Assembly (NCBI GenBank): GCA_018242365.1
Contig: JAFECB010000004.1
Location: 124,001 to 188,000, forward strand
From: Pseudomonadota bacterium
Lineage (GTDB): Bacteria > Pseudomonadota > Gammaproteobacteria > Xanthomonadales > Xanthomonadaceae
Length of the DNA stretch: 64,000 bases
Reading direction: 5' to 3'
Below the pieces are notes generated by a model. The model saw only the letters and a list, made by a program, of their open reading frames with translations. It made no database searches and had not been told where the DNA came from. Below, one piece after another: positions 17,982 through 33,176 of this stretch; position 1 is the stretch's first letter; each line of letters starts with the position of its first letter. Position numbers and translations under genes: made by a program.

Positions 17982-19652
17982 TCACAGCAATCGCCCGCCC
18001 TCCAACCGCAGCACGCGATCGGCCAGCGCCAAGCTGGCCGGTCGATGGGTAATCATGATGACCGTGCGCTTGGCGAGGATGTCGCGGCAGGCCTCGATGA
18101 ACTCGGCCTCGCCCTCGGGATCGAACATCGCGGTCGCTTCATCGAGGATCAGGATGGCCGGATCGCGCAGCAGCGCGCGCGCAAGCGCGATCCGCTGGCG
18201 CTGCCCGCCGGACAGCCGCACGCCTTGATCGCCAACCACGGTGGCATAGCCGTCGGGTAGCGCCGCGATGAAATCATGTGCCCGCGCGGCGCGCGCCGCT
18301 GCCTCGATGGCCTCGCGCGTGGCGTCGGTACGACCGTACGCGATGTTGTCGGCAATCGTGGCGTTGAACAGCAACACCTGCTGGGCCACCAATCCGATCT
18401 GGCTGCGCAGCGCCTGCAACCGATACGCACGCACATCGAACGGCCCAATCACCACCTTGCCACCCTGCGGTTCGACCAAGCGCAGCAGCAGGTGGACGAG
18501 GGTGCTCTTGCCTGCGCCGTTGATTCCCGTAAGCGCCACCGTCTCGCCGGCGCGGATGCACAGGTTCAAGCCGCGAAACAGCGGCTCGCGGCCTGGGTAC
18601 GTGAAATCCACGCCCTCGAAGACGACGTCCGCGTGGGCCGGAATCTGCTCCTGCTCGCCCTCATCGACCTCGGGGCTTGCCGTCATCGCCTCCTGCAAGC
18701 GCCGCAAGGAACCCGCCGCCGCCAGCGTGCTGCCAAACACCGATGCCAAGGTGCTGACCGGCGCGATCAGCACCATCCCGTACAGGAACAGGCTCACCAG
18801 CTGCCCCATCCGCAACTGTTCTCCCACCACCCAATGCCCGCCAAGCCCGAGCAGCAACAGGATCGCCCCGGCACCGACCACATGCACGACCGGATTGATC
18901 ACGCCCTCGCGTCGTGCCAGTCGCAGGTCCACGTCGAAAATCGCATCGGCTCGCGCCCGGTAGTTCGCGCGTTCCGCCTGCTCGGTCGCGAACGCCTTGA
19001 TCAACGGGAGTGATTCCAGGTTCTGTTCCGCCGTCGCGCTCTGGTCCGCCCAAGCCTGCGCGGAGGCATGCGCCAAGGGTCGCAACCCACGCCCGTACAA
19101 TTTCAGCACGATGAACATCAGCGGCAACAGCGCCGCCACCATTACTGCAATCGCCGGGGCCAGTTGCCACATCATCACCAACGCACCCACCAAGGTGAAC
19201 AGCAGCGGCAGCAAGGGCAGGACAATCCCGGTCAGATAGCCGGTCAGTCGATGCACATCACCACTGAGCAAGGCCAGCACGTCGCCGCGTTGGCGGGCGT
19301 GGTGCCAGGCAAGCGGCAAGGCCTGCAGGTGCGCGTAAAGTTCCGCACTGGCATCGGCGACGAGCTTTCCGGAAACCTTCTGCAACTGGATCGAGGTGAT
19401 GTAACCCAAGCCCTGCTGGGCGCAGATCAGCCCAAACAGCAGCCACAGCAGGGTGCCGAGGTGCTGGTCGAGCAAGAGGCGGTCGGTCAGCACTCCCGCC
19501 AGCCAGGGTTGCACCAGGGTCGCCCCGCTTTGCAACAGCATCAGGCCCAGTGCCAGCAATAGCACTGGCAGGTGCGGACGCAGCCACGCTTTCAGGCGGC
19601 CCTGAACCGCCTGTGCCTGCGGCCCCACCTCGCTTTCCCCTTTACCCGGCAT
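17982..19652 (-). CDS. Lasso-type RiPP ABC exporter (D protein)
   Basis: Fused permease-ATPase of 556 residues: six transmembrane helices in the N-terminal about 300 residues, then a nucleotide-binding domain with Walker A GINGAGKST, signature LSGGQRQRIALARAL and Walker B ILILDEATAMFD. It is probably the exporter and immunity protein of the RiPP, as McjD is for microcin J25. The ATG at 19652 has GAGGGA just upstream; a longer frame begins at 19742 but would overlap the B1 gene. It is divergent from B1 with 46 bp between. A generic lipid or peptide exporter cannot be excluded by sequence alone. Confidence 0.85.
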   Translation of the reverse strand: MPGKGESEVGPQAQAVQGRLKAWLRPHLPVLLLALGLMLLQSGATLVQPWLAGVLTDRLLLDQHLGTLLWLLFGLICAQQGLGYITSIQLQKVSGKLVADASAELYAHLQALPLAWHHARQRGDVLALLSGDVHRLTGYLTGIVLPLLPLLFTLVGALVMMWQLAPAIAVMVAALLPLMFIVLKLYGRGLRPLAHASAQAWADQSATAEQNLESLPLIKAFATEQAERANYRARADAIFDVDLRLARREGVINPVVHVVGAGAILLLLGLGGHWVVGEQLRMGQLVSLFLYGMVLIAPVSTLASVFGSTLAAAGSLRRLQEAMTASPEVDEGEQEQIPAHADVVFEGVDFTYPGREPLFRGLNLCIRAGETVALTGINGAGKSTLVHLLLRLVEPQGGKVVIGPFDVRAYRLQALRSQIGLVAQQVLLFNATIADNIAYGRTDATREAIEAAARAARAHDFIAALPDGYATVVGDQGVRLSGGQRQRIALARALLRDPAILILDEATAMFDPEGEAEFIEACRDILAKRTVIMITHRPASLALADRVLRLEGGRLL

Positions 19653-19698
19653 CGTCCCTCGCCTACGCTGTCGCACCTGATCCACGAACCCGACAAGC

Positions 19699-19992
19699 AT
19701 GACCGCAACGCCCGTCGCCGTCACCCTCGCCAAGCACCTCACGCCCTCCGACGATGTCCTGGCGCAGGAAGTGGGCGACGAAGTCGTGCTATTGGACCTG
19801 GCCAGCGAGCGCTATTTCGGACTGGATCCAGTCGGCACCCGGATCTGGACCTTGCTGCCCGACTGCTCGAACCTGGGCGCGGTGTTGACCCAGCTGTGCG
19901 CGGAATTCGACGCTCCGCGTGAGCAGATCGAATCCGACCTGCTGGCTCTCGCCAATTCGCTGGCCGAAGCCGGCTTGGTCACGGTGGACTGA
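19699..19992 (+). CDS. Lasso RiPP leader-binding protein B1 (PqqD/RRE family)
   Basis: Stand-alone RiPP recognition element of 97 residues with the PqqD-like winged-helix fold: an N-terminal strand region EVGDEVVLLDLASERYFGLD and the family-typical VGTRIWTLL helix. In lasso systems B1 binds the leader through the YxxP and LxxxG motifs, both of which are in the nearby precursor. It is followed after one base by the B2 protease gene, the standard split-B arrangement. It heads the plus-strand half of the locus. Confidence 0.92.
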   Translation: MTATPVAVTLAKHLTPSDDVLAQEVGDEVVLLDLASERYFGLDPVGTRIWTLLPDCSNLGAVLTQLCAEFDAPREQIESDLLALANSLAEAGLVTVD

Positions 19993-19993
19993 A

Positions 19994-20437
19994 ATGGGCC
20001 GCCGGCTGGCCGGCTGGCGTGCGTTGGGCTGGGGAGATCGCTGGCGATTGCTTGCCTGCATGGCAGCCCTGCCGCTTTTGCACGCCAGTCTCGCCACGCT
20101 GGGCTACAAACGCACCCGGCGCGTCATCGAAGTGCTGAGCCGCCGCCCCGCACCGCGCACCGCCAGCCCCGCTGACGTCGCTGCCGCACAGCGCTTGGCC
20201 CGACTGGCCGCCATCGCTGGACGCTACGGGTTTGTGGACGCCACCTGCCTGCGCCAATCCTTGCTGCTGTACTGCTGGCTACGCCGGCGCGGGTTCAACC
20301 CGCAGTTGCAATTGGGGATGAAACCGGATCCACAAGCAACCTTCGGTGCCCACGCGTGGGTCGAACTGGATTGCCAGCGGCTGATGCCAGGGGATTCGGG
20401 ACACAGGGCATTCCAGCGCCCAGGCGATACCCACTGA
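19994..20437 (+). CDS. Lasso peptide leader protease B2 (transglutaminase-like)
   Basis: Cysteine protease of 147 residues that removes the leader. The catalytic triad of the Transglut_core3 family is readable: C85 in VDATCLRQSLLLYCWL, H120 in FGAHAWVEL, and D126 in VELDCQ. The RRRGFNPQL stretch between them is also family-typical. The ATG at 19994 follows the B1 stop directly. In lasso systems B2 acts with B1 and cleaves two residues after a conserved threonine, which is T29 in the adjacent precursor. Confidence 0.92.
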   Translation: MGRRLAGWRALGWGDRWRLLACMAALPLLHASLATLGYKRTRRVIEVLSRRPAPRTASPADVAAAQRLARLAAIAGRYGFVDATCLRQSLLLYCWLRRRGFNPQLQLGMKPDPQATFGAHAWVELDCQRLMPGDSGHRAFQRPGDTH

Positions 20438-20487
20438 GGTCCCTCGCGCCCACGGTCGTATGCCTTGAAGAACGCCAACCCTTGTAA

Positions 20488-20516
20488 TTGCGAATGTGAC
20501 CGAGTTAACTTATCAT
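20488..20516 (+). promoter_or_regulatory. Candidate sigma-70 promoter for the RiPP precursor
   Basis: TTGCGA (20488-20493, 4/6 to the -35 consensus) and TATCAT (20511-20516, 5/6 to the -10 consensus) are separated by exactly 17 bp in the 176-bp gap between B2 and the precursor. This gap is locally more AT-rich than its surroundings. Transcription would start near 20523, leaving about 90 nt of untranslated leader. Confidence 0.55.
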
Positions 20517-20613
20517 CGTCACGTCGGTGTCTGGCCGAAGCAACGGTTGACTGACCTCACCACGTGTTTCACCGTCCGGATTCCACTACGATGCCATTTA
20601 CTCAGGGGACGCC

Positions 20614-20811
20614 ATGGAAAGCTTGAACGCCCAAACGCAATCGCAGAAGCCCTACGCCGCGCCGCGCCTGAAGGTGTATGGCAGCGTGCTCGAGTTGACC
20701 TCCGCATCCACCGGCCCGGTCATCGAAGTCGGCAACGCGGGCATGGGCATCATGAGCTGCTACGACGGCCTCAACAACGGCACCAGCATGACCCGCAAGC
20801 ACTGCGTCTGA
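20614..20811 (+). CDS. Lasso-type RiPP precursor peptide, 65 residues
   Basis: The leader (residues 1-30) contains YAAPRLKVYGSVLELT, matching the lasso leader consensus YxxPxLxxxGxxxxLT at every conserved position. If T29 is the conserved -2 threonine, cleavage after S30 gives a 35-residue core starting Ala-Ser-Thr-Gly. Glu38 is then core residue 8, in register for an 8-residue macrolactam from Ala1. The core also has Cys19 and Cys34, Arg31, several Ser/Thr near the C-terminus, and is glycine- and asparagine-rich. AGGGGA precedes the ATG at 20614. Known lasso cores are mostly 15-26 residues, so this one is long. Other RiPP topologies are possible. Confidence 0.85.
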   Translation: MESLNAQTQSQKPYAAPRLKVYGSVLELTSASTGPVIEVGNAGMGIMSCYDGLNNGTSMTRKHCV

Positions 20812-20828
20812 CGCGGTACGCCAGCGCT

Positions 20829-20854
20829 CGTCTCCCGTGTGAATCCGGGAGGCG
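20829..20854 (+). terminator. Stem-loop between precursor and kinase (attenuator or RNA stabiliser)
   Basis: A 9-bp stem (20829-20837/20846-20854, one G-U pair) with an 8-base loop lies 17 bp after the precursor stop and 22 bp before the kinase start. No U-run follows. Such hairpins often let precursor mRNA accumulate above that of downstream enzymes. Confidence 0.5.
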
Positions 20855-20876
20855 TGGCGATTCATCGAAGAATGCA

Positions 20877-21872
20877 ATGATCGAGCCCGCCGGCCCCGTG
20901 TTTGCGGGCTATTTTCTGTCCACCGATATCCCGTTGCCGGCATTGCCCGCAGGCGCGCGGGATGCCTCGCGCCCATGGCTGCGCGTCTACAGGGCCAGTT
21001 CCGCATCCGTCCCGATGGCGGAGCCCCTGCACTGGGACCACCAGTGGCGGGGGAACGACGGCAGCATGAACCTGCAAGTGCTGCGCTTACCGCAGGCACG
21101 CCACGACGACCCCGCACGCTACTGGCTGCAGGTCCCTGGCTTGTGCGATTTCGTGCTCAGTCCGGCCATCGGCGATGTTGCGGTGGCAGCCCCCGACAAC
21201 ATTGCAGCGAACACGTTGGAGCACCTGTTGCTGGACCAGGCCATCCCGCGCTTGCTCGCCGGAGCTGGCCATCTGGTCGTGCACGCGAGCCTGGTCCGGA
21301 TTGGCGATCAGGTCATTGCCTTTCTCGGCCACAGCGGCTGGGGAAAATCCACCCTCGCCGCCCTGTTCCACCAACGCCGCTACCCTGCACTGTGCGACGA
21401 CTGCATCATCCTGGAAACGGACGCCGAGCATACCTCCGCAACCCCGAGCTATCCGGGCCTGCGGCTGTTTTCGGACAGTATCGAACAGGCGCTGGCCAAT
21501 GCCGGCCCCAGCGACTCGGTTTCCGATTACAGCAACAAGCAGCGCATCATCCGGCTGGGCATTCCACCCGAGGCATTGGGCGCGCATCCACTCGCGGCGA
21601 TCTTCCTGCTGGATGACCCGCAGCAAGGCGGCGACCGCCTGCGCATCGAACCCATCACTGCCGCGGCAGCGTGCATGGCGATCATCGAGCACGGCTTCCG
21701 GCTGAACCCCGCCGAGCCGGCCGAATCCGTTCGTCAACTGCAATCGGCGAGTACGGTGGCGCGCAATACCCCCGCCTACCTGCTGCACAATCCGCGCGAC
21801 TTCGGCCAGCAGGACGCCTTGGTCGACGGTATCCTCGACCATCTCGCAAATCCGCATCACGCCGCGCGATGA
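20877..21872 (+). CDS. HPr-kinase-like protein, candidate RiPP kinase
   Basis: Protein of 331 residues. The C-terminal half has an HprK-type P-loop, GHSGWGKST (residues 151-159), preceded by LVVHASLVRIGDQVIAFL and followed by ALCDDCIILE with the paired aspartates (173-174) of HPr kinases. The N-terminal 110 residues are not recognised. Homologues next to lasso precursors (paeninodin type) phosphorylate a core serine, so phosphorylation of a core Ser/Thr is inferred here. The ATG at 20877 has GAAG upstream. The stop overlaps the methyltransferase start as ATGA. Confidence 0.83.
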   Translation: MIEPAGPVFAGYFLSTDIPLPALPAGARDASRPWLRVYRASSASVPMAEPLHWDHQWRGNDGSMNLQVLRLPQARHDDPARYWLQVPGLCDFVLSPAIGDVAVAAPDNIAANTLEHLLLDQAIPRLLAGAGHLVVHASLVRIGDQVIAFLGHSGWGKSTLAALFHQRRYPALCDDCIILETDAEHTSATPSYPGLRLFSDSIEQALANAGPSDSVSDYSNKQRIIRLGIPPEALGAHPLAAIFLLDDPQQGGDRLRIEPITAAAACMAIIEHGFRLNPAEPAESVRQLQSASTVARNTPAYLLHNPRDFGQQDALVDGILDHLANPHHAAR

Positions 21873-23035
21873 GCTACAACGACAACTATTCCCTCATCGC
21901 CTATGGCCAGATGATCGAGGACCTCGGCCGTTTCCAGCCATGGCTGGATGCCCTGCGCCGCCACATCCACGAGGACAGCGTGGTGCTGGATATCGGCTGT
22001 GGCCCCGGTGCCATGTCCTTCCTCGCCTGCCGCTTCGGCGCCCGCAAGGTGTATGCCATCGAACCGGACGGCAGCATCGAGGTGGCCAAGCGTTGCGCGG
22101 CCGGCATCCCGGGCGCGGATCGGATCGAATGGATCCGAGGGATGTCGACCCAAATCGACCTGCCTGAACAGGCCGACATCGTGGTCGGCGATCTGCACGG
22201 CAATCTGCCGTTCTACACCAGCAACATCGCCTCACTGGCCGACGCCCGCAAGCGCCACCTGAAGCCAGGTGGCATCCTGCTACCGCGCCGCGACCAACTG
22301 TACGCCGTGCCGGCATCGGCACCGTGGGAGATCGATGCCATCGAAGCCCCGTGGCGCCGCAATGCCCTGGATCTCGATCTGACGCCGGCCCTGTCGATGC
22401 TGGTCAACCAATTCTGGCGAGCACGCGGCAAGGAAACCGATGCCGAGAGACTGCTTGCCGAACCGGCCCACTGGGGCACGGTGGACTACCATGCCGCCGA
22501 AGAAACGCGCGGCCTGGACAGCACCCTCGACTGGACGCTGGACTGCGGTGGCCGCGTCGATGGACTGTATGTGTGGTTCGACGGCGAAGTGGATACAGGC
22601 TTGGGCTTCAGCAACTCGCCCTTGCTGCCGGAGTTGCAGTACGGGCGGGCGTTCTTCCCGCTGGAACATCCGGTGGACGTGCATGCCGGTGATCGCATGC
22701 AAACCCGCTTATCGGTTCGACGCATGCTCGATAACTGGGTGTTCCGCTGGGATACCCGGATCACGGATGCGGCATCGGTGACGAAGGCCAGCTTCAAGCA
22801 ATCCACCTTCCGCATGCAGCCCGAGGATCTGGCGCTGCTGCGCAAATCGGATGCCAGCCACGCACCCGTGCTCGCCGAAGATGGCCAGATCCGCTTGATG
22901 GTCCTCTCCATGATGGATGGCCAGCACAGCCTGTCGGACATCGCAAACGTACTGCTTGCCCGCCACCCGAAACAGTTCCGCAATTTCGAAATGGCGCTGG
23001 CGGAAGCTGCATCCTGTTCGCGCCGGTTTGGCTGA
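21869..23035 (+). CDS. PRMT-like SAM methyltransferase with PqqD-like C-terminal tail
   Basis: Protein of 388 residues. SAM motif I is VVLDIGCGPGAMS (residues 38-50) with the ribose-binding acidic residue E65 in VYAIEPD. The order of motifs and the beta-barrel-like region after LKPGGILLP follow the protein arginine methyltransferase layout. The double-glutamate loop of true PRMTs is not intact: the expected SE position reads VGDLHG and no second glutamate follows at the usual distance. Residues about 319-388 (MMDGQHSLSDIANVLLARHP) resemble PqqD/RRE winged helices. It is coupled to the kinase, so RiPP or leader-guided methylation is inferred. Confidence 0.78.
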   Translation: MSYNDNYSLIAYGQMIEDLGRFQPWLDALRRHIHEDSVVLDIGCGPGAMSFLACRFGARKVYAIEPDGSIEVAKRCAAGIPGADRIEWIRGMSTQIDLPEQADIVVGDLHGNLPFYTSNIASLADARKRHLKPGGILLPRRDQLYAVPASAPWEIDAIEAPWRRNALDLDLTPALSMLVNQFWRARGKETDAERLLAEPAHWGTVDYHAAEETRGLDSTLDWTLDCGGRVDGLYVWFDGEVDTGLGFSNSPLLPELQYGRAFFPLEHPVDVHAGDRMQTRLSVRRMLDNWVFRWDTRITDAASVTKASFKQSTFRMQPEDLALLRKSDASHAPVLAEDGQIRLMVLSMMDGQHSLSDIANVLLARHPKQFRNFEMALAEAASCSRRFG

Positions 23036-23140
23036 GCCAAGCGGGTCTTGGTCAACAGGTCAACGCCGTCCATGCACGCGCCGTCGCCGCCTCACGATGG
23101 TCTGCGCGCAACGTCACCTGCAACTGCGCCACCCTCGCTG

Positions 23141-25063
23141 TCAGGACGCCTGCAATTGGTGGCGTTCAATCCAGCCTGAGAGTGTCGCGAGCAACAGCAC
23201 GCTGTCACCGTTCTCCTGAGCGCAACGTGTCGGATCAGCACGCCAAGCATCGCACAGCCGGCCCAGCGCACCGGCATCGACCACGCCACTCAGGCGCTCG
23301 CCCGCAGCGACCAGCAATTCCGAGACACGCGGCTGGGCCGCAGCGAGCAGCCGCTCACCAAGATGCTGACCGACATGCGACTTGCCTGAGTACCACGCAA
23401 TGTCGTCGCCCAGTTCCGGCGCGCAGGCGGCACGGACGATCCATTTCGTCCAACCATCGCGGGACAGAAGCTCGTCCGGCAGTCTCATGAGCAAATCGAT
23501 GACGCGTTGATCGCACCAAGGGTGCCAAGCCTCAAGGCCATACTGCGCATAGGTGCGGTCGGTGCCTTCCATCGCACGCATGAATCCCGGATTCCACCAG
23601 ATCCAAGCCAAGCGATCCTGTCGCAAGTCGTCGCGCCGGAGCTTGCGCGCCGCAAGGGCAGCGTCCAACCGGCGCTCGCGCAAGCGCAATCGCGTCGAAA
23701 ATCCCGGATCCAGCCACGATTCCGATTCCTGGGCGTGCAGGGCACGCCGCCGATAACGGTGACGCGCCAGCCAGTCCGGCTGCATGTTGGCTGCGACGCC
23801 TTGCCAAAGGATGCGCATTGGGGAGACGCCTTGCTGATAGGTATTCACGCGACTGGCCATGCGTGCTTCACGGACCGCGCTGAGCACCCGCCCGGAGATG
23901 AACAACTGTGCTGCGCGGCGGTTGGTGGACGCAGTGGCCACATCACCATCCGCGCCATCGATGACCACCCTGCATCCAGCCGCTCTGGCGTGAAAGCAGC
24001 TCAGTGTCGCGTAGGACAGGGAATTGTCGATCGGGTGGGCGTGATGCCAGTAGCGTTCCAGCAGGCCTGCGAACCCTGCTTGTCCCTCCAAATCCTCGAT
24101 CGGGATCTGGATGCCATCACTACCTGCATGAAGGCGTTGGATATTGGCGGTCTCGCTCGACACTGGCTCATGCGTCTCGACCAACGAGATCGGCAACAGC
24201 GGCAATGGTGCTCCGTCGTCACGCAGACGTCGCGCAGACGCCAACACGCAGCCGGAATCGATTCCACCGCTGAGCAGCAGCGCCGGTCGCGCCACGCCAC
24301 GGACACGGCAGGCGACTGCCGCATCGAATGCCTCGCGAAACTCCACGATATGCTCGCGCGGATCGCGGGTCGGTGGCATCGATTGCGTGAGTGGCTGCCA
24401 ATAGCGGCTTAGCTGCACCCGACCATCCGCCTCGACCTCCAACCGCCACCCAGGCTGCAGCCTGGTCACATCGCGATAGAACGTCCGACTGAAGTCATCG
24501 AAATCGAAGCCCGTGGCCAGCAGGTACGCCAAGCCGTCCTCGTCGCAACGGCGCGAGATGCCATCCAGCCCAAGCAGGGCCTCAGGCTCCGATGCAAACG
24601 CCAACAAACGACGGGAACGTGCATAGAACAACGGGCGAACGCCGATGCGGTCGCGCATCAAGGTCAAGCGCTGCTCGCGACGATCCCAAGCCGCAAGTGC
24701 AAAATCACCTTCGACGTGCCGCCAGAACTCCGCCTGCCAACGGCCCCAGGCCATGCCAAACAGACCGCCATCACTGGTGACCGCAAGCGTGGCCGTATCC
24801 ACGCCCAGGACTTTGGCAAGTGTGTCGCGATTGTCGATGCGACCATCGACTACCAGCATCCAACGTTCACCCAGCGCAACGGGCTGGCGCTCGAAAGCGG
24901 CTTCGGGCGTGACCTGTAGCGCACCATGCCCAAGCCCGACCTGGCGTTCGACCCACGTTGAAACACCATCAGGCGTACGGTGCGCCTGCGCTCCAAGCAC
25001 CGTCGCCAGATCGTGGTTTGCCGGACCTTGATCCAGCCGCGAAACACCTGCAATCGCCGCCAC
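23141..25063 (-). CDS. Lasso cyclase, asparagine-synthetase-like (C protein)
   Basis: Protein of 640 residues homologous to AsnB. It would adenylate the core acidic side chain and form the macrolactam. The N-terminal glutaminase-like domain is retained but begins MAAIAG, so the Cys2 nucleophile of real glutaminases is absent, as in McjC-type cyclases. The ATP-pyrophosphatase motif LSGGIDS (residues 264-270) is intact. The GTG at 25063 is the start. The gene lies on the opposite strand to the precursor and converges on the methyltransferase. Confidence 0.88.
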   Translation of the reverse strand: MAAIAGVSRLDQGPANHDLATVLGAQAHRTPDGVSTWVERQVGLGHGALQVTPEAAFERQPVALGERWMLVVDGRIDNRDTLAKVLGVDTATLAVTSDGGLFGMAWGRWQAEFWRHVEGDFALAAWDRREQRLTLMRDRIGVRPLFYARSRRLLAFASEPEALLGLDGISRRCDEDGLAYLLATGFDFDDFSRTFYRDVTRLQPGWRLEVEADGRVQLSRYWQPLTQSMPPTRDPREHIVEFREAFDAAVACRVRGVARPALLLSGGIDSGCVLASARRLRDDGAPLPLLPISLVETHEPVSSETANIQRLHAGSDGIQIPIEDLEGQAGFAGLLERYWHHAHPIDNSLSYATLSCFHARAAGCRVVIDGADGDVATASTNRRAAQLFISGRVLSAVREARMASRVNTYQQGVSPMRILWQGVAANMQPDWLARHRYRRRALHAQESESWLDPGFSTRLRLRERRLDAALAARKLRRDDLRQDRLAWIWWNPGFMRAMEGTDRTYAQYGLEAWHPWCDQRVIDLLMRLPDELLSRDGWTKWIVRAACAPELGDDIAWYSGKSHVGQHLGERLLAAAQPRVSELLVAAGERLSGVVDAGALGRLCDAWRADPTRCAQENGDSVLLLATLSGWIERHQLQAS

Positions 25064-25251
25064 TCAGCCCGTCCTTGCCATCACAAAAATCACATCGCAC
25101 GCTTTCGTCGACGCCATTCGGCCCGCAACGATCACTCTCTGGGACAATATACCCATGATGTCGTCATTGCCTCTCACCACATGCCCGTGGGAAGCCACCC
25201 ACGTTCGCCGCGCCTGCAGCCTCGGCTGACGCGATCGATCATCGGACTCGC

Positions 25252-27498
25252 ATGGATCACTACACATTCCTTGAAGCGCTGCGCCTGATCAACCAACGGG
25301 CAAAGGATCGCCCGCGGGAAGCCGCGCAACCGAATGCGGCCGATGCGGACACCACGCCGTGCGATGCCAAAGGATGGCACAAGCGTGCGCTTGAGTGCGC
25401 GAATGCGCAGGATGAAGCCGGTGCATTGGCCGCTTGGACACAAGCATTGTCCTGTCCGATTCGCAAGCTGGCGTTGGTGGTGGACATCAGCAAGGCACTG
25501 CGGGAGTTCGGGCACGACCCCGCGGACATCCTCAACGCCAGCGCAATGCTGGCACCGCCCGCCGCCGACGCGGAGGGCGGCGCGGATCCGTCTATGTTGC
25601 CAGCATCAGTGATCGCCCAAGCACTGCAAGGTGACTGGCGCGCAGCCCTGCCCCATCTTGATGATGACCTTGCCGCGCATCCCAAGAGTCAGCGTCGCGC
25701 CGACAACTTGGCCTTGGCTTTGACAGAACTCGGGCAGGAAACAAGGGCTCGTTGCGTGCTCGCGACCACGATGGGCGAACGCGAGGACTGGCACGGTGCG
25801 GCAGACGCCTTCCTCACGCTGCCGATAGAAACAGTGATCAAGTGCGAGGCGATGACAATGATGCTGATCGCGCTGCACTATTCTGGCAAAGAGTTGCAGG
25901 CGTTGGAGGCTGCGGAAGAAGCCGCCAGACTCGGTAGATGCGATGCGCGCGCACGCATCCAATGGGCATGGATTCTGATGGATCTCGGGCGCACGCCCGA
26001 GGCGCTCGCGGTGTTGAAAACTGGCGCGCAAGCTCTAGATGATCCCTATCTAGACATGCAGTCCGGCCTGATCGTTACCCCAGTCCCTGAATCACTGGAG
26101 ACGGTCGCGTCGGATGATGCCCGGGCCACCGCATTTACCCGGACGCTGCCCGCCCGTCCCCTCCCGGAAACACACGACGCACTTATCAAGCTCGCATCGG
26201 TCATGGAACCGAACTTCTACGCGACATATCGCGACCATCCAAATCTAGCACTTCTCCGCGATCACGCAGGGTATGTTTCGCGCGTACTCAACGCTTGTTA
26301 TGCAACATCTGTACCGCTCAAGAAACCACTACCGCTCGCGGACCGAAGATTGCGGATTGGCTTTGTGTTTCGACAGGCGACAAACCATACCGTGGCTCGG
26401 CATTTTGCCGGCTGGTTGAACAGTATGGACACAAGCCAGTTCGAAACCCATCTGTTTCCACTGACCCACAGGCGGGACTGGATGAGCCTGTACTTGCGTG
26501 GACAAGTCGATGTTTGCCACCCTGCCACCGAGGATTTCACGACCGCGGTCAATGCCATCCGCGAGGCAAATCTCGACCTTCTCATGCATATCGCCATCGG
26601 CATGGATCCGCTGACCCTGCAGATCAGTGCACTGCGGCTCGCACCTGTGCAGTGCGCCACGTGGGGACACCCAGTCAGCACGGGTTTGCCCTCGATCGAC
26701 TATTTCATTAGTGCGGGTGGCATGGAGCCTGACGACGGGAACACCCACTATTCAGAGCGGCTGGTGACCTTGCCAGGCACCGGCGTGACCATGCCAGAGA
26801 CGGTGCTACCCAAGGTCACCGCAACTCGCGCCGAACTTGGGATGCCAGAACGCTCTCCTGTCTATGTTTCCGCGCAATCGCTGTTTAAATACATGCCGCA
26901 GTACGACGACCTCTACGCACGGATTGCGTGCGAGGTCGACGATGCCGTGTTCGTGTTTGCAGAAGGAGAGATCCCCGCGTGGACGCGCACGTTTCGAAAG
27001 CGGATTGAGACGCCGTTCCGGTCGCTCGGCTTATCGCCAGAGAATCACATTCGCGTGTTGCCGCAACGCCAGCTAGAGGAATACTTCGCTCTACTTCGCT
27101 GCTGCGATGTAATGCTCGACACGCTAGGCTGGTCCGGGGGACAGACATCTTATGACGCCCTCGCGGTTGACCTGCCGATCGTGACCCTACCCGGCAAGAT
27201 GATGCGCGGCCGCCAGACACTCGGCATGCTCAGGCAAATCGGCGTCGAAGACACCATCGCAAAGGATCGCGACGATTACATCAGAATCGCGATTCGACTT
27301 GGACAGGATCGCGCGTGGCGGGAGGATGTGGCTAGGTGCATTCACGAGCGCAAGCACCTGCTTTACGACAATCAGCTTCCCGTACGTGCGCTCGAGGCGT
27401 TTTTCCGCTTCGCAGTCGGCGCTGCAAAACCGGGCGATACCGAACTGTTCAAACTGTGGCCGCCGAATCCCGGCGATTCCTCCCGCGATTCGGCGTAG
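25252..27498 (+). CDS. SPINDLY/OGT-like glycosyltransferase (GT41) with TPR-like N-terminus
   Basis: Protein of 748 residues. The N-terminal about 350 residues are helical and TPR-like (repeated WKRALE/LALALTELG-type segments). The C-terminal half has the GT41 signatures: RRLRIGFVFRQATNHTV, a DLLMHIAIGMDPL segment, VQCATWGHPVSTGLPSIDYF, HYSERLVTLPG, QSLFKYMP and LDTLGWSGGQTSYDAL. GT41 enzymes transfer GlcNAc, fucose or other sugars to Ser/Thr of proteins, and bacterial versions modify adhesins or flagellin. It is divergent from the cyclase by 188 bp. Codon use from about 26 kb looks less GC-biased than its neighbours. Its stop lies in a REP arm. Confidence 0.82.
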   Translation: MDHYTFLEALRLINQRAKDRPREAAQPNAADADTTPCDAKGWHKRALECANAQDEAGALAAWTQALSCPIRKLALVVDISKALREFGHDPADILNASAMLAPPAADAEGGADPSMLPASVIAQALQGDWRAALPHLDDDLAAHPKSQRRADNLALALTELGQETRARCVLATTMGEREDWHGAADAFLTLPIETVIKCEAMTMMLIALHYSGKELQALEAAEEAARLGRCDARARIQWAWILMDLGRTPEALAVLKTGAQALDDPYLDMQSGLIVTPVPESLETVASDDARATAFTRTLPARPLPETHDALIKLASVMEPNFYATYRDHPNLALLRDHAGYVSRVLNACYATSVPLKKPLPLADRRLRIGFVFRQATNHTVARHFAGWLNSMDTSQFETHLFPLTHRRDWMSLYLRGQVDVCHPATEDFTTAVNAIREANLDLLMHIAIGMDPLTLQISALRLAPVQCATWGHPVSTGLPSIDYFISAGGMEPDDGNTHYSERLVTLPGTGVTMPETVLPKVTATRAELGMPERSPVYVSAQSLFKYMPQYDDLYARIACEVDDAVFVFAEGEIPAWTRTFRKRIETPFRSLGLSPENHIRVLPQRQLEEYFALLRCCDVMLDTLGWSGGQTSYDALAVDLPIVTLPGKMMRGRQTLGMLRQIGVEDTIAKDRDDYIRIAIRLGQDRAWREDVARCIHERKHLLYDNQLPVRALEAFFRFAVGAAKPGDTELFKLWPPNPGDSSRDSA

Positions 27499-27585
27499 GA
27501 GTGCGCCGAGGCCGTAGGCGGAGGGTCGCGATCGGGGCCCCGAAGTCATCGCACCCCTCGGCCTACGGTCTCAGTATGCTCCTAC
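27495..27585. repeat. GTAG-headed REP doublet 2, variant subfamily
   Basis: Two imperfect 38-bp arms (27495-27532 and 27548-27585) in inverted orientation, both beginning GTAGGAG on their own strand and ending near GCGAT, with an internal CCGTAGGC core absent from the other three elements. It occupies the gap between the converging GT41 and nucleotidyltransferase genes and provides the GT41 stop codon. Confidence 0.75.
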
Positions 27586-28733
27586 CGGGAAGGATGACCG
27601 AACACGCGCACCACACCCCGACCCAGCCGACGCAGCCACAATCGCCACAGCGGACCATCGCCGTACAAGGCCCGCAATTGCGCCGCACCCGGTAACAGCC
27701 GTTGGCGCAGCCAATGCAGGCGTGCGCCAAGCGTCGGCAGTGCGCGTAGATGCTGCCACTGCATGTAACGCCAGTCACCGATACGACGATAGTCCGTTGG
27801 CTCTTGGACGGCCAGCGCTTGCAGGCGCTCGGCGACGCTGGGAGGCACAACCGCGCCGACGTCACGCACGGCATCCTGCAAGGAACGCAGGCAGACGCCG
27901 GCGATCTTTTTGTCGGCAGCCAGCGCGCACAGTGCTCGCCAGTCCGCGTCCTCGTTGTGGGCGGACATCAAGCGCAGGTCGTAGAGCAACTTGAGCCGAT
28001 CCGGAATCGCGTTTTGCATATCCAATGCGCGGTTCAAGCAGGCATGCGCCAACGCGTGGGTTGGCGACAATGCGCGCATGCATGGTCCAACGCCGCACAG
28101 GTTTTGCGCCTCGACCCAGAGCTCATCGAACGAAAACAACTCCGCATACGCAGCCGCATTGAGCAGGCGCGAGTGCACGTCCAACTCACAGCGCAGGGTA
28201 TCGTCCACATGCCGCCGCAAGGTCAGCTCGAAATGGGTGTCGCCGGGATCAAATGCACGTACATAACCCATCGGTGCGAGCAACGCCTCCGCCTGGCTTG
28301 ACGCATCGGCAGATTCCAGCAGCAAGTCGACATCACCGCCCATCCGCAGAAAAGGTTGCGGATAAAGCCACAGCGCAAGCGCACTACCTTTCAATAGCAG
28401 CACACGCATGCCGGCGGCAGAGAGCACCTGCTCGATTCGCCGCAATTCGTCGAGACGTAGAAGCCAATGCGCTGCCACCCCGCGCACATGCGACTGCAAG
28501 GCATCCCGTTGGCGTTCGGACAGCGCCTCCCAGCCACCTTCCGAGCGCAAACGCGCCTCAAGAAGCGCGGCCACGCCTTCGCGCTCTGCAGCGTCCAGCA
28601 ACTGTTGCGCTGTCACCGCATCGTCCAGCGGCGGCGGTCGCCCGCTGCGTAATGCGGTGGCGAGCCAATCGCGCAGCGAGGTGGAGTCAGTGGTGCTGGA
28701 CAAGCAAGGTCCCGGAATTGATCGGAGCGCCAC
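27582..28733 (-). CDS. NTP_transf_5 family nucleotidyltransferase
   Basis: Protein of 383 residues with a nucleotidyltransferase core of the Pol-beta type: VLLLKGSALALWLYP followed by RMGGDVDLLL, in which GG and D-x-D are the expected nucleotide- and metal-binding residues. The rest is helical. Families of this type recur beside lasso and PqqD-linked loci and in polysaccharide loci; the reaction is unknown. The GTG at 28733 directly abuts the stop of the upstream epimerase, so it is translated as the last gene of the polysaccharide operon while sitting next to the RiPP genes. Confidence 0.78.
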   Translation of the reverse strand: MALRSIPGPCLSSTTDSTSLRDWLATALRSGRPPPLDDAVTAQQLLDAAEREGVAALLEARLRSEGGWEALSERQRDALQSHVRGVAAHWLLRLDELRRIEQVLSAAGMRVLLLKGSALALWLYPQPFLRMGGDVDLLLESADASSQAEALLAPMGYVRAFDPGDTHFELTLRRHVDDTLRCELDVHSRLLNAAAYAELFSFDELWVEAQNLCGVGPCMRALSPTHALAHACLNRALDMQNAIPDRLKLLYDLRLMSAHNEDADWRALCALAADKKIAGVCLRSLQDAVRDVGAVVPPSVAERLQALAVQEPTDYRRIGDWRYMQWQHLRALPTLGARLHWLRQRLLPGAAQLRALYGDGPLWRLWLRRLGRGVVRVFGHPSR

Positions 28734-29753
28734 TCACACCCGGTAATACTCCCGATACCACGCGACGAAACGCGCGACGCCCTCCTCTACTGACACGCCT
28801 GGCGCGATGCCGATGTCCTCTGCCAGATCCGAGGTATCTGCTTCGGTATCCGGGACATCACCCGCTTGCAGCGGCAGCAGTTCCATCTTCGCCTTGCGGC
28901 CGAGGCAGTGTTCAAGGATTTCGATGTAACGCAACAATTCCACCGGCTCGGCATTGCCGATGTTGTAGAGGCGGTACGGCGCCACGCCGCTGGTGGCCGG
29001 GTCCGGCGCGGCACTGCGCCAATTCGGGTCGCGCGCGGGCGGATGATCGAGCGCAGCGACCACGCCGGCAGCAACGTCATCGACATAGGTGAAACTGCGC
29101 CGATGGTGGCCATGGTTGAACACCTTGATCGGCTCGCCGGCAAGGATCGCCTTGGTGAACAGGAACAGCGCCATGTCCGGGCGGCCCCACGGGCCATAGA
29201 CGGTGAAGAAACGCAGCCCCGTGCACGGGATGCCGTACAGATGCGCGTAGGCGTGCGCCATCATCTCATTGGATTTCTTTGTCGCCGCGTACAGCGTCAA
29301 CGGATGCTCGGTGCTGGCGTGTTCGGAGAACGGCATCTTGGTGTTCGCACCATAGACCGAGCTGGTCGAGGCATAGACCAAATGCTCAACGCTGTGCTGG
29401 CGGCAGCCTTCCAGCACATGCAGGAAGCCGGTCACATTGCTGGCCACGTACACGTGTGGATTCTCGGCGGCGTAGCGCACGCCTGCCTGCGCGGCCAGGT
29501 TGACCACCTTGGCGGGCTTGTGCGTATCGAACACCGCTTCAACCGCAGCGCGATCAGCAAGGTCGACGCGCGCATCGATGAAATTCGGATGATCGATGAA
29601 GCGCGCCAACCGCGCCTTCTTCAGCGCGACATCGTAATAGTCATTGAGGCAGTCCAGCCCAACCACGGTTTCGCCACGCTCCAGCAAGCACTGGACGACG
29701 TGCGAACCGATGAATCCGGCGCTGCCGGTGACGAGGGTGGTCATGGTTGGCAT
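28734..29753 (-). CDS. UDP-glucuronate 4-epimerase-like NAD-dependent epimerase
   Basis: Short-chain dehydrogenase/reductase of 339 residues predicted to interconvert UDP-glucuronate and UDP-galacturonate. NAD motif GSAGFIGSHV, catalytic serine in STSSVYG and Y-x3-K as YAATKK are all present. The LNDYYDVALKKARL stretch and VYGPWGRPDMALF with NHGHHRRSFTYVDDV are characteristic of the uronate epimerase subgroup. An internal ATG at 29744 is an alternative start. It supplies an acidic sugar nucleotide to the polysaccharide operon. Confidence 0.87.
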   Translation of the reverse strand: MPTMTTLVTGSAGFIGSHVVQCLLERGETVVGLDCLNDYYDVALKKARLARFIDHPNFIDARVDLADRAAVEAVFDTHKPAKVVNLAAQAGVRYAAENPHVYVASNVTGFLHVLEGCRQHSVEHLVYASTSSVYGANTKMPFSEHASTEHPLTLYAATKKSNEMMAHAYAHLYGIPCTGLRFFTVYGPWGRPDMALFLFTKAILAGEPIKVFNHGHHRRSFTYVDDVAAGVVAALDHPPARDPNWRSAAPDPATSGVAPYRLYNIGNAEPVELLRYIEILEHCLGRKAKMELLPLQAGDVPDTEADTSDLAEDIGIAPGVSVEEGVARFVAWYREYYRV

Positions 29754-29764
29754 CTCAAGGGGAA

Positions 29765-30982
29765 TCAGGGCGAGGTCTGGATCGAAGTGAGCATCGTATC
29801 CCAGCGTTGGAACGTCGCATCGCGCGTGAAATGCGCATCCAGCAGTCGACGTGCCCGTGCGCCCATGGCGGAAACCAGTTCAGGATCGCCCGCCAGTCGT
29901 TCGATGCCTGCGCAAGCGCCATCGACATCGCCAGGAGCCACCGCATGGCCAATTTGGGAGGCGTGCAAGCGCTGCGCGACCTCGCCATCCAGCTTGCCGA
30001 TGAACAACGACGGTCGACCCGCGGCAAGAATCCCGTACCACTTGCTCGGGAAGATGCAGCCTTCCAGCGCAGGCGCAAGGGTCAGCCAATGCAGGTCCGG
30101 TAGCGACAGGCTGTGCGCAAGCGCCTCGCGCGGCTGATACGGCTTCAGGATGACATTGTCCAGCTTCCGCACCGTGGCTTCGTCCGAAAACTCGTGCAGG
30201 CCGCGACCGCCTCCGATCAACACGAAACGAATGTCATCGCGATCACGCAAACGCGTGGCGACCTCCAGCATGGTGCGCCAGTCGTGGGCGCGGCCGAGAT
30301 TGCCGGAATAGCCGATGACGAACTTGCCTTCCAGTCCCCACTCGCGACGCAACGGATTGTCCTGCGCAGCCAAGGGACGGATCGACTCGGCATCGGTCCA
30401 GTTCTCGATGACCATGATGCGCTCACGAGGTACACCCAGCGCGGCGATCCGCACCGCCATGCCTTCGGAAATCACCACCACCTGCGCGCTGCGGCGCAGG
30501 CCACGGTTGCGCCACCCGCGCAGCGGTGCGGCAGCCATGCGCACGGCACCACCGAACACGGCCTCGGCGACTTCCGGAAACAGATCCTGCAACCAGTGCA
30601 CGCAATGCGCACCGCGCCGGGCCGCAATCCTGCCCAGCGCAGACCCCAGCAATGGCGGATCGGTCATCGCCACCACCACATCGCCGGGCTGAAGTCGCTC
30701 CGTCAATTCACGCCTGACGCCGCGCGAATAATCCAGATAGTCCAGCGCACGCCCGGCCAATCCATCGCGACCGAATCGGCTGTTGCCGACGCGCAGCACA
30801 TCCACACCGTCGATTCGCTCCGTCTCCGGCAGGGTTGCCTGGGCATCGTCATAGCGCTGCCGGGAACCAACCAGAGTGACCTGCATCCCGCGTGTCGCCA
30901 AATGCGTGGACAGATCCGTCAACAGCTGGCTGGTCGCGGACAGGTCGGGCGTAACGTAGCGATTGCAGAAGTAGATACGCAC
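29765..30982 (-). CDS. Glycosyltransferase family 4 (WbuB-like)
   Basis: GT-B retaining glycosyltransferase of 405 residues. The N-terminal acceptor domain begins RIYFCNRYVTPDLSATSQLL, and the C-terminal nucleotide-sugar domain contains KFVIGYSGNLGRAHDW and PSKWYGILAAGRPSLF, the WbuB/WcaI type of ending. These enzymes add N-acetylated amino sugars or fucose to lipid-linked intermediates; the sugar here is not known. It sits between the uronate epimerase and fcl with 11-bp gaps. Confidence 0.85.
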   Translation of the reverse strand: MRIYFCNRYVTPDLSATSQLLTDLSTHLATRGMQVTLVGSRQRYDDAQATLPETERIDGVDVLRVGNSRFGRDGLAGRALDYLDYSRGVRRELTERLQPGDVVVAMTDPPLLGSALGRIAARRGAHCVHWLQDLFPEVAEAVFGGAVRMAAAPLRGWRNRGLRRSAQVVVISEGMAVRIAALGVPRERIMVIENWTDAESIRPLAAQDNPLRREWGLEGKFVIGYSGNLGRAHDWRTMLEVATRLRDRDDIRFVLIGGGRGLHEFSDEATVRKLDNVILKPYQPREALAHSLSLPDLHWLTLAPALEGCIFPSKWYGILAAGRPSLFIGKLDGEVAQRLHASQIGHAVAPGDVDGACAGIERLAGDPELVSAMGARARRLLDAHFTRDATFQRWDTMLTSIQTSP

Positions 30983-30993
30983 GTCGTGCGTGC

Positions 30994-31926
30994 TCAGGCT
31001 CCGCGCCGTTCGTCGGCGTGCTGCAGGTACCAGGCGTAGGTGTTGCGCACGCCATCCTCCAGCCCGATCCGAGCCTGCCAGCCCAAGGCGTGGATGCGCG
31101 AGACGTCCAGCAATTTGCGCGGCGTGCCGTCGGGCTTGCTTGGGTCCGTCGAAATCGTGCCTTCGAAGCCGACCACCCGCGCCACCAACTCGGCCAGTTC
31201 GAGGATGGCCAGATCGTCACCGACGCCGACGTTCACGATGGCATCGGAGCTGTAGCCCTGCATCAGGAACACCGCCGCCGCCGCAAGATCATCGACATGC
31301 AGGAACTCGCGTCGTGGCGTGCCGGTGCCCCAGATCGTCACCGCTGCATCGCCGCGCAGCTTGGCTTCGTGGAAGCGCCGGATCAGCGCGGGGAGCACGT
31401 GTGACGACGTGAGATCGAAATTGTCACCGGGGCCGTACAGATTGGTCGGCATCAAGGAGATGGCATCGAACCCGTATTGCTTGCGATAGGCCTGGCAAAG
31501 CTTGATCCCGGCGATCTTGGCGATCGCATACCACTCATTGGTCGGCTCCAGCGCGCCGGTCAGCAGCACATCCTCGTGCATCGGCTGCGGTGCAAACTTC
31601 GGATAGATGCAGGAGGAGCCGAGGAAGCACAGCTTGTTCACGCCATGCCGCCACGCCGCGTGGATGACGTTGGTTTCGATCACCAGGTTGTCGCGGATGA
31701 ACTCGGCCGGGCGGGTGTCGTTGGCATGGATGCCGCCGACTTTCGCGGCTGCCAGATACACCTGATCGGGGCGCTCGCGCTCGAAAAAGCGCTCGACTTG
31801 TTCCTGCGAGGTGAGATCGAGCTCGGCGCGCGAAGGCAACAGCAGATCGCCATCACCCTGCGCCTGCAAACGGCGCACGATGGCAGAGCCGACCAGACCG
31901 CGGTGGCCTGCAACGTAGATTTTCAT
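30994..31926 (-). CDS. fcl: GDP-L-fucose synthase
   Basis: NADPH-dependent 3,5-epimerase-4-reductase (310 residues) that makes GDP-L-fucose from GDP-4-keto-6-deoxymannose. The cofactor motif is [10 protein letters not shown]. The catalytic serine is in GSSCIYPK and the Tyr-Lys pair is in [11 protein letters not shown], all as in E. coli WcaG. It acts directly after Gmd, whose gene is next upstream in the operon, separated by a REP element. Confidence 0.95.
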
Positions 31927-31986
31927 TCGAAGATGCCTTGCAATTTCGGTTTCATCTGGAATGCCAATTGGTGATGCTGAGAATGG

Positions 31987-32050
31987 TCGCGCCCCTGCGG
32001 TGCACTCCTACAGGCGTGTGACCCTCGCAGGTGTAACGCAGGGGCGCGAT
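31987..32050. repeat. GTAG-headed REP doublet 3, partly decayed
   Basis: Arm 31987-32011 matches the common 25-bp arm with one change; the second arm (32026-32050, inverted) keeps only its last 13 bases intact. It lies inside the polysaccharide operon in the 140-bp gap between gmd and fcl, one of only two large gaps there. Confidence 0.8.
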
Positions 32051-32066
32051 CCACCACAAACCTCCC

Positions 32067-33176
32067 TCACTCCGCGTGCTTGTACGTGCGGAAACCAGCC
32101 TCGCTGACCATGGCGTCGCGACGCGCGTGCGCCAGGTCTTCGGTCACCATTTCATGGACGAGTTGCTCGAACGACGTCTTCAGCGTCCAGCCCAGCTTGG
32201 TCTTTGCCTTGGTCGGATCGCCCAGCAGCGTTTCCACCTCGGCGGGGCGGAAATAGCGGCTGTCGACCGCCACGATCCGCTGGCCGGACTTCAGCGGAGA
32301 ACCTTCCGGCGCACACGCGACAAAGCCTTGCTCATCGACGCCACTGCCGCGCCATTCCAATTCAATCCCCAGTTCGCCCGCTGCCCGGGTCACGAATTCG
32401 CGCACCGCGTACTGCTCGCCGGTGGCGATCACGAAGTCCTCTGCCTGTTCCTGCTGCAACATCAACCACTGCGCTTCGACATAGTCGCGTGCATGGCCCC
32501 AGTCACGTCGCGCATCAAGATTGCCCAGATACAGGCAATCCTGCAGGCCCAGCGAAATGCGCGCCAGCGCGCGGGTGATCTTGCGGGTGACGAAGGTCTC
32601 GCCGCGCAACGGCGACTCATGGTTGAACAGGATGCCGTTGCAAGCATACATGCCGTAGGACTCGCGATAATTCACCACGATCCAGTAGGCATACAACTTG
32701 GCCACGCCGTAGGGCGAACGCGGATAGAACGGCGTGGTCTCCTTTTGCGGAATCTCCTGCACCTTGCCGTACAGCTCCGAGGTCGAGGCCTGGTAGAAGC
32801 GGGTCTTTTTTTCCAGCCCGAGGATGCGGATCGCCTCCAGCAGCCGCAGCGTGCCCAGCGCATCCGAATTGGCGGTGTATTCCGGGGTCTCGAACGAGAC
32901 CTGCACATGGCTTTGCGCGCCGAGGTTGTAGACCTCGTCCGGCTGCACCTGCTGGAGGATGCGGATCAGGTTGGTAGCGTCGGTGAGATCGCCGTAATGA
33001 AGGAACAGGCGGCGATCCGGCGCGTGCGGATCCTGGTAGAGATGGTCGATGCGATCGGTATTGAACGACGAGGCACGGCGCTTGATGCCATGCACCTCGT
33101 AGCCCTTTGCCAACAGCAATTCGGCCAGATAGGCACCGTCCTGGCCGGTGATGCCGGTGATCAGGGCTCGCTTCAT
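32067..33176 (-). CDS. gmd: GDP-mannose 4,6-dehydratase
   Basis: First committed enzyme of GDP-fucose synthesis (369 residues), converting GDP-mannose to GDP-4-keto-6-deoxymannose. NAD motif [17 protein letters not shown], catalytic STSELYGKV (T-x-E) and Y-x3-K as [10 protein letters not shown] are intact, as is the GMD-specific [15 protein letters not shown]. The ATG at 33176 is preferred because it makes an ATGA overlap with the acyltransferase stop. Its product feeds fcl. Confidence 0.97.

Follow-up and report, generated by a model that had tools for sequence, protein, structure and literature searches.

We analysed a 64,000-nucleotide stretch of DNA (the window) from a Xanthomonadaceae genome that has Thermomonas as its closest named relatives, and focused on a cluster of nine genes for a lasso peptide, a ribosomally synthesized and post-translationally modified peptide (RiPP). 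All nine genes named by the initial annotation were recovered as uninterrupted frames on the stated strands, as judged from the open reading frames (ORFs) and from Pfam and NCBIfam matches (Table 1). Nevertheless, the annotation had missed the two most telling features of the system, which are an altered arginine pocket in the methyltransferase of the cluster and an enrichment of methionine in the precursor cores that accompany this enzyme.

Genes of the lasso cluster and its precursor

Table 1. Genes of the lasso-peptide cluster in the window, with the evidence for each assignment
Feature	Position	Strand	Evidence
ABC exporter (lasso D protein), membrane and ATPase domains	17982..19652	-	Pfam ABC_membrane and ABC_tran above cut-offs
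B1, PqqD-family RiPP recognition element, 97 residues	19699..19992	+	Pfam PqqD 8e-17
B2 leader peptidase, 147 residues	19994..20437	+	NCBIfam lasso_biosyn_B2, 74.9 bits vs curated cut-off 33
Precursor, 65 residues	20614..20811	+	Lasso leader motif and acidic core residue
HprK-type peptide kinase	20877..21872	+	Catalytic residues kept
PRMT-related methyltransferase, 388 residues	21869..23035	+	Profile and predicted fold
Lasso cyclase, asparagine synthetase-like, 640 residues	23141..25063	-	Pfam Asn_synthase and GATase_7
GT41-family glycosyltransferase, TPR-like N-terminal part	25252..27498	+	Pfam Glyco_transf_41 5.8e-22
NTP_transf_5 (PF14907) nucleotidyltransferase-fold protein	27582..28733	-	Pfam 7.2e-37

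The B1, B2 and C genes, by whose joint presence a lasso cluster is recognised, stand together here, and judged from its genes the locus is a complete lasso-peptide cluster. B2 scores over its curated cut-off and the remaining machinery is supported by Pfam matches. The B1, B2, C and D proteins were correctly recognised before, as were the kinase-methyltransferase operon and the split over both strands, which agree with the coordinates. Pfam Transglut_core3 also exceeded its cut-off in the window proteins, alongside PqqD, Asn_synthase and GATase_7. The best NCBIfam models for B1 are lasso PqqD models, with scores below their cut-offs, and the top NCBIfam match of the cyclase, lass_lactam_cya (2.9e-88), is likewise under the cut-off of the model. 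When aligned with those of four congeneric loci, the exporter showed 71-77% identity along most of the protein.

The precursor has the leader YAAPRLKVYGSVLELT-S, in which the motif YxxPxL...G...Tx is complete, so the perfect lasso leader motif claimed for it is confirmed. The predicted core is A1-S-T3-G-P-V-I-E8-VGNAGMGIMSCYDGLNNGTSMTRKHC-V35, with E8, an acid within core positions 7-9, as the ring acceptor; the core starts used here are predicted ones at all loci, that of the window following from the Thr(-2) rule. This core holds three Met (Met14, Met17 and Met29), two Cys and one Arg (Arg31), and its tail ends in KHCV. As an unmodified lasso it has a calculated mass of 3551.609 Da, or 3549.593 Da if a disulfide is formed. 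Against NCBIfam lasso_cyano the precursor reached 18.5 bits, under the model cut-off. A homologous precursor that is 92% identical (P0122) has an unchanged core, all five differences being in the leader, while another (P0121) has a single change, Ala to Met, inside the core. Two or three different precursors per cluster were seen at five methyltransferase-linked loci (L033, L021, L029, L044 and L069).

The methyltransferase and the methionines of its cores

The methyltransferase is formed by an S-adenosylmethionine (SAM) domain and a beta barrel, reaching to around residue 314, and then a C-terminal helical domain. Both the sequence profile and the predicted model indicate that the PRMT fold is retained, and the SAM motifs are kept; PCMT gave no match for the window protein at E 0.01 in Pfam. 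In the alignment, D108 and T117 occupy the loop positions of the PRMT double Glu, and L256-Q257-Y258 replaces the THW loop, whose histidine is gone. The window enzyme thus lacks both of these PRMT marks, the two Glu of the substrate loop and the THW loop. Regarding the C-terminal domain, the Pfam family matched most often was PqqD, in 11 of the 31 members (best E 7e-4), the window row being without a match to it; hhalign against PqqD gave P 2.4e-4 and a probability of 44%, or 15% with a narrower alignment, and the first Foldseek match was PqqD 3g2b (E 0.75). From these profile and model comparisons we tentatively describe this domain as PqqD-like.

Cores were parsed from all small ORFs that carry the leader motif and lie close to a kinase, cyclase, B1 or methyltransferase gene. 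We called a core linked when a methyltransferase lay within 6 kb, which gave 58 linked cores at 52 loci and 31 unlinked cores at 26 loci. L174 and L224 were dropped because they are not precursors, and L270 (a core with one Met) because its contig is too short for methyltransferase status, whereas the window core, L075 and the first core of L069 were added by hand. Met was present in 49 of the 58 linked cores and in 2 of the 31 cores of kinase clusters without the methyltransferase (p 2.5e-13). The loci found with the kinase as bait extend only 1.5 kb past the kinase, so the absence of a methyltransferase is a weaker statement there; when they were excluded, the figures were 49/58 linked and 1/16 unlinked cores. 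Within the genus, all 9 linked cores and 1 of 5 unlinked ones had Met, and within the Acidobacteriota 16/22 and 0/6 respectively. The next strongest residue was Pro (37/58 linked vs 29/31 unlinked, p 0.002), and none came near Met. The positions of Met peak 5-8 residues past the ring acid (11, 12, 15 and 8 cores), and 11 cores have one two residues before it.

This enrichment beside the enzyme makes methylation of Met, rather than of arginine, likely. A true arginine methyltransferase acting on Arg31 would be in keeping with the PRMT-like sequence and predicted fold, and with the single Arg of the window core. However, the window enzyme has neither the second loop Glu nor the THW His, and Arg is missing from 35 of the 58 linked cores; both the pocket residues and these Arg-free cores disfavour arginine methylation by the window enzyme, which we consider improbable. 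The one lineage that does fit it comprises L196, L200 and L202, where the enzymes have both loop Glu and a T-S-W aligned to THW. Their cores contain no Met and 20-25% Arg, the maximum among the other 46 being 9%, and in this single lineage the enzyme looks, from its sequence, as if it still reads arginine.

The main rival to Met methylation is methylation of the phosphate or of some other site. The methyltransferase would then target the phosphate, the C-terminal carboxylate or a Lys or His of the tail, and Met may be a structural plug and not a substrate, that is, a bulky residue holding the tail in the ring. We take this to be a serious possibility, and several observations weigh on its side and against Met as the target. 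The methyltransferase is nearly always found with the kinase, a partner that Met methylation does not require (19/20 of the methyltransferase loci found with B2 as bait, 48/50 of the cyclase loci found with the methyltransferase as bait). Met has no fixed position across the linked cores, and 9 of the 58 lack it, three in the double-Glu lineage and six elsewhere (L031, L034, L040, L045, L067 and L245), the latter at five places of the methyltransferase tree and speaking against Met as the sole target. Furthermore, a Glu lies at or beside the second loop position in 10 of the 46 other enzymes. In the residue table we saw no pocket residues separating the six loci from the rest, and among the small ORFs of seven Met-less loci no second, Met-bearing precursor was obvious. 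Methylation of the C-terminus is known from StspM (PMC9266682), and the tail motif [KR]x(0,1)[ST] was enriched in the last eight residues (27/58 linked vs 5/33 unlinked cores before curation, p 0.003).

Relatedness weighs in the same direction, since shared ancestry means that the raw p-values overstate independence. Along the kinase tree the presence of the methyltransferase changes 11 times, yet the supported branches provide only 4 independent pairs. On average, Met tracks the methyltransferase in 2.7 of these pairs, and it is opposite in none (median p 0.25). The relatedness-corrected test is therefore consistent in direction and underpowered.

On the other hand, a target other than Met finds no common Lys, His or C-terminal residue in the linked cores: 14 of the 58 have no Lys, and 6 have neither Lys nor Arg. 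The [KR]x(0,1)[ST] motif, although enriched, occurs in under half of them and was rejected as a shared target. In the double-Glu lineage the cores are rich in Arg and free of Met, which also suggests that core composition follows the pocket of the enzyme.

Met-rich cores might instead bind a metal such as copper, with the methyltransferase or the kinase tuning the binding. Some cores have runs like GMMTMMMMP and GGGMGMGMMGMM, which would agree with such a role, as would the Cys, His and Met of the Thermomonas tails. However, many linked cores have one or two Met and neither Cys nor His, and we find this explanation very improbable.

Recurrence of the gene set and the other tailoring genes

A search of the genome collection baited with the methyltransferase yielded 264 relatives, of which the top 80 were retained, some of them on short contigs. 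A lasso-type cyclase was present in 50 of these 80 loci, and among the 50 we counted 48 with the kinase, 29 with NTP_transf_5, 33 with B2, 38 with B1 and 2 with GT41. The loci combining kinase, methyltransferase and cyclase are assigned in their records to Acidobacteria, Gamma- and Deltaproteobacteria/Myxococcales, Cyanobacteria, Gemmatimonadetes, Verrucomicrobia and KSB1, and the kinase and the methyltransferase thus recur together in lasso clusters from seven phyla or more. The cultured relative Thermomonas carbonis (P0014) has every gene of the set apart from GT41.

With B2 as bait, 134 loci were annotated, 15 from the genus, 64 from a phylum sample and 55 from the Acidobacteriota. In the latter, 58 B2 places were over the cut-off, of which 57 were covered by the 55 stretches and one (G677) was left out; four B2 places under the cut-off were also left out of the set. 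The kinase was found in 77 of the 134 loci, the methyltransferase in 20 and both in 19 (Fisher p 1.3e-4), and GT41 in two (L103 and L154); L108, whose methyltransferase is broken, was counted as being without it. In this congeneric locus both the methyltransferase and the kinase are in two pieces, and no precursor was recognised.

The gene set is more than chance, because the same genes stand together in dozens of loci and the core is conserved in P0122, and its recurrence with both baits rules out that it is unique. The combination had been described as unknown in lasso systems, which does not hold: a kinase paired with an annotated nucleotidyltransferase has been published, as psmK/psmN and bsfK/bsfN (PMC9266682, PMC10368454), and kinase and methyltransferase occur together in nearly all the cyclase loci above. 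As for the co-occurrence that the initial annotation proposed to check, the kinase, the methyltransferase and NTP_transf_5 do recur, whereas GT41 is mostly absent.

The locus could also be an ordinary pseudomycoidin-like cluster for a phosphorylated lasso peptide, in which the methyltransferase is a passenger, given that kinase and nucleotidyltransferase are a published pair and that 30 of the 80 methyltransferase loci show no cyclase, which means that the family extends beyond lasso loci. The association with kinase and cyclase across phyla, together with that with Met, speaks against it, and we regard it as unlikely.

The kinase matches the HprK-related NCBIfam models weakly (25.9 of 200 bits). 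Nevertheless, it keeps H136, GxxGxGK157ST, D174-D175 and K221, all of them invariant columns in an alignment of 23 sequences, and its motif has the spacing of that of BsfK (PMC10368454). A His, a Lys and two Asp are reported to be essential in lasso kinases (PMC9266682, PMC10368454), and these residues of PadeK, ThcoK and BsfK are present as H136, K157, D174 and D175. Regarding the phosphate acceptor, the window core ends in Val, but it has Thr3. Ser or Thr occupies core position 3 in 8 of the 9 methyltransferase-linked cores of the genus; over all cores it is no commoner with the methyltransferase (17/58) than without it (10/33, both before curation). The nucleotidyltransferase gene expected for a sugar transfer like that of PsmN is present as the PF14907 protein.

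GT41 was found in 3 of the 25 genus genomes, the window included, and every copy is divergent from the cyclase start and 45-47% identical. The back-to-back starts of GT41 and cyclase are seen in the window, in L022/L103 and in L329, where the end of the contig holds cyclase residues 1-129; the copy in G021 has a stop inside the matched stretch. The cores of the three GT41 clusters share C-Y-[DN]-G, which is absent from the other congeneric cores. Such cores beside a GT41 gene at the cyclase make a link with the lasso peptide plausible, no more; GT41 is an accessory gene and a possible tailoring enzyme.

Some relatives of the methyltransferase lie in other surroundings. In eight loci that their records label as Anaerolineae, Anaerolineales or Chloroflexi (L039, L049, L051-L054, L060 and L061) no kinase, B1/B2 or cyclase was detected near them. 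In L074, L084, L090 and L091, genes for B1-like, kinase-like, methyltransferase and NTP_transf_5 proteins are close together, without B2 or a precursor, and a cyclase-like match in L084 is far away; these groups are possibly a non-lasso peptide system.

Proposed product and related systems

Starting from what is directly observed, namely which genes are there, that the kinase residues are intact, that the arginine pocket is altered and that the cores are enriched in Met, we tentatively propose, and with rather less than even confidence, that the product is a phosphorylated, probably sugar-capped lasso peptide, S-methylated on methionine. The leader would be held by B1 and probably by the C-terminal domain of the methyltransferase itself. 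The kinase would act on the linear precursor and phosphorylate a Ser or Thr, the top candidate in the genus being Thr3 of the ring, because BsfK modifies Ser3 and a Ser or Thr occupies this position in nearly all congeneric linked cores. As has been proposed for PsmN, NTP_transf_5 would add a sugar cap to the phosphate, and the methyltransferase would convert one Met of the loop or tail, most often 5-8 residues past the ring acid, to a sulfonium. This methylation would work by proximity, since a neutral thioether needs no base, as in MmtN (PMC9135737). B2 would then cleave after the residue that follows Thr(-2), the cyclase would close the ring between Ala1 and Glu8, and the ABC protein would export the product; the two tail Cys could pair as a disulfide, and GT41, where encoded, may attach a further sugar.

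A wider proposal is that a PRMT-derived family, found in the lasso clusters of seven or more phyla, gave up its arginine pocket in favour of S-methylation of Met and so gives sulfonium lasso peptides, while the double-Glu lineage serves Arg-rich cores, the enzyme-core pair recording a natural target switch. We put it forward as a possibility about which doubt prevails. If true, there would be a class of lasso peptides that carry a sulfonium on methionine, which means a permanent charge on a rarely modified residue, and a second exit from the PRMT fold, in which the scaffold is kept and the acceptor atom changed. Whether or not Met is the target, the set of kinase, methyltransferase and NTP_transf_5 marks a widespread lasso subtype.

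Regarding the known systems, the clusters of pseudomycoidin (psmK, psmN) and paeninodin (padeK) resemble that of the window in their split B1/B2 and HprK-like kinase, but their phosphate is on a C-terminal Ser, whereas the window tail is KHCV, and the accessible text of the source mentions no methyltransferase (PMC9266682). The psm cluster also has a nucleotidyltransferase gene, a likeness by annotation that does not imply the family of PsmN (PF14907 or other). The bsf cluster of Bradymonas sediminis, where BsfK phosphorylates Ser3 of the ring, shares the kinase motif and spacing, the Ser/Thr at position 3 and a nucleotidyltransferase (bsfN); it differs in that BsfA has Ile(-2) and the window precursor Thr(-2), and a methyltransferase is unmentioned for bsf in the text available (PMC10368454). 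StspM and LasF (C-terminal) and the LihM type (aspartate) are, like the window enzyme, SAM enzymes of lasso pathways (PMC9266682, PMC13352647). They are set apart by their descriptions, given that a mitomycin O-methyltransferase served as the model for StspM and that LihM is homologous to PIMT, whereas the window enzyme matches PRMTs. Compared with the eukaryotic PRMTs (PRMT1, 2, 6, 8 and CARM1), the window enzyme has the same profile, predicted fold, SAM motifs and Met15 and Arg21 helix, but it has D108/T117 for the double Glu, no THW and an added C-terminal helical domain.

As for the proposed chemistry, a review of RiPP methyltransferases describes, in its accessible part, S-methyltransferases as rare, with one sulfonium Met and no enzyme proven (PMC11285071). 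That case is Met13 of longipeptin A, which is not a lasso peptide and for which the enzyme LopH is only proposed, and MmtN performs the enzymatic S-methylation of free Met; both are likened to the window enzyme by description. In our searches of the open literature we found no description of a kinase-methyltransferase-NTP_transf_5 lasso subtype, and among the matches listed nothing related on lasso peptides with an arginine methyltransferase or PRMT, or on methionine-rich lasso peptides. The new part is the methyltransferase result, the pairing of kinase and nucleotidyltransferase being already published.

Around the cluster, the scan of the window gave no more promoters or terminators than shuffled sequence, and the Rfam and tRNA scans of the window gave no matches. 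Upstream there are genes for TatD, an acyl-CoA dehydrogenase and an E1/transketolase-type dehydrogenase. Directly downstream of NTP_transf_5, positions 28737-33170 carry nucleotide-sugar epimerases, a GDP-mannose dehydratase and a glycosyltransferase, which places the cluster at the edge of a sugar locus.

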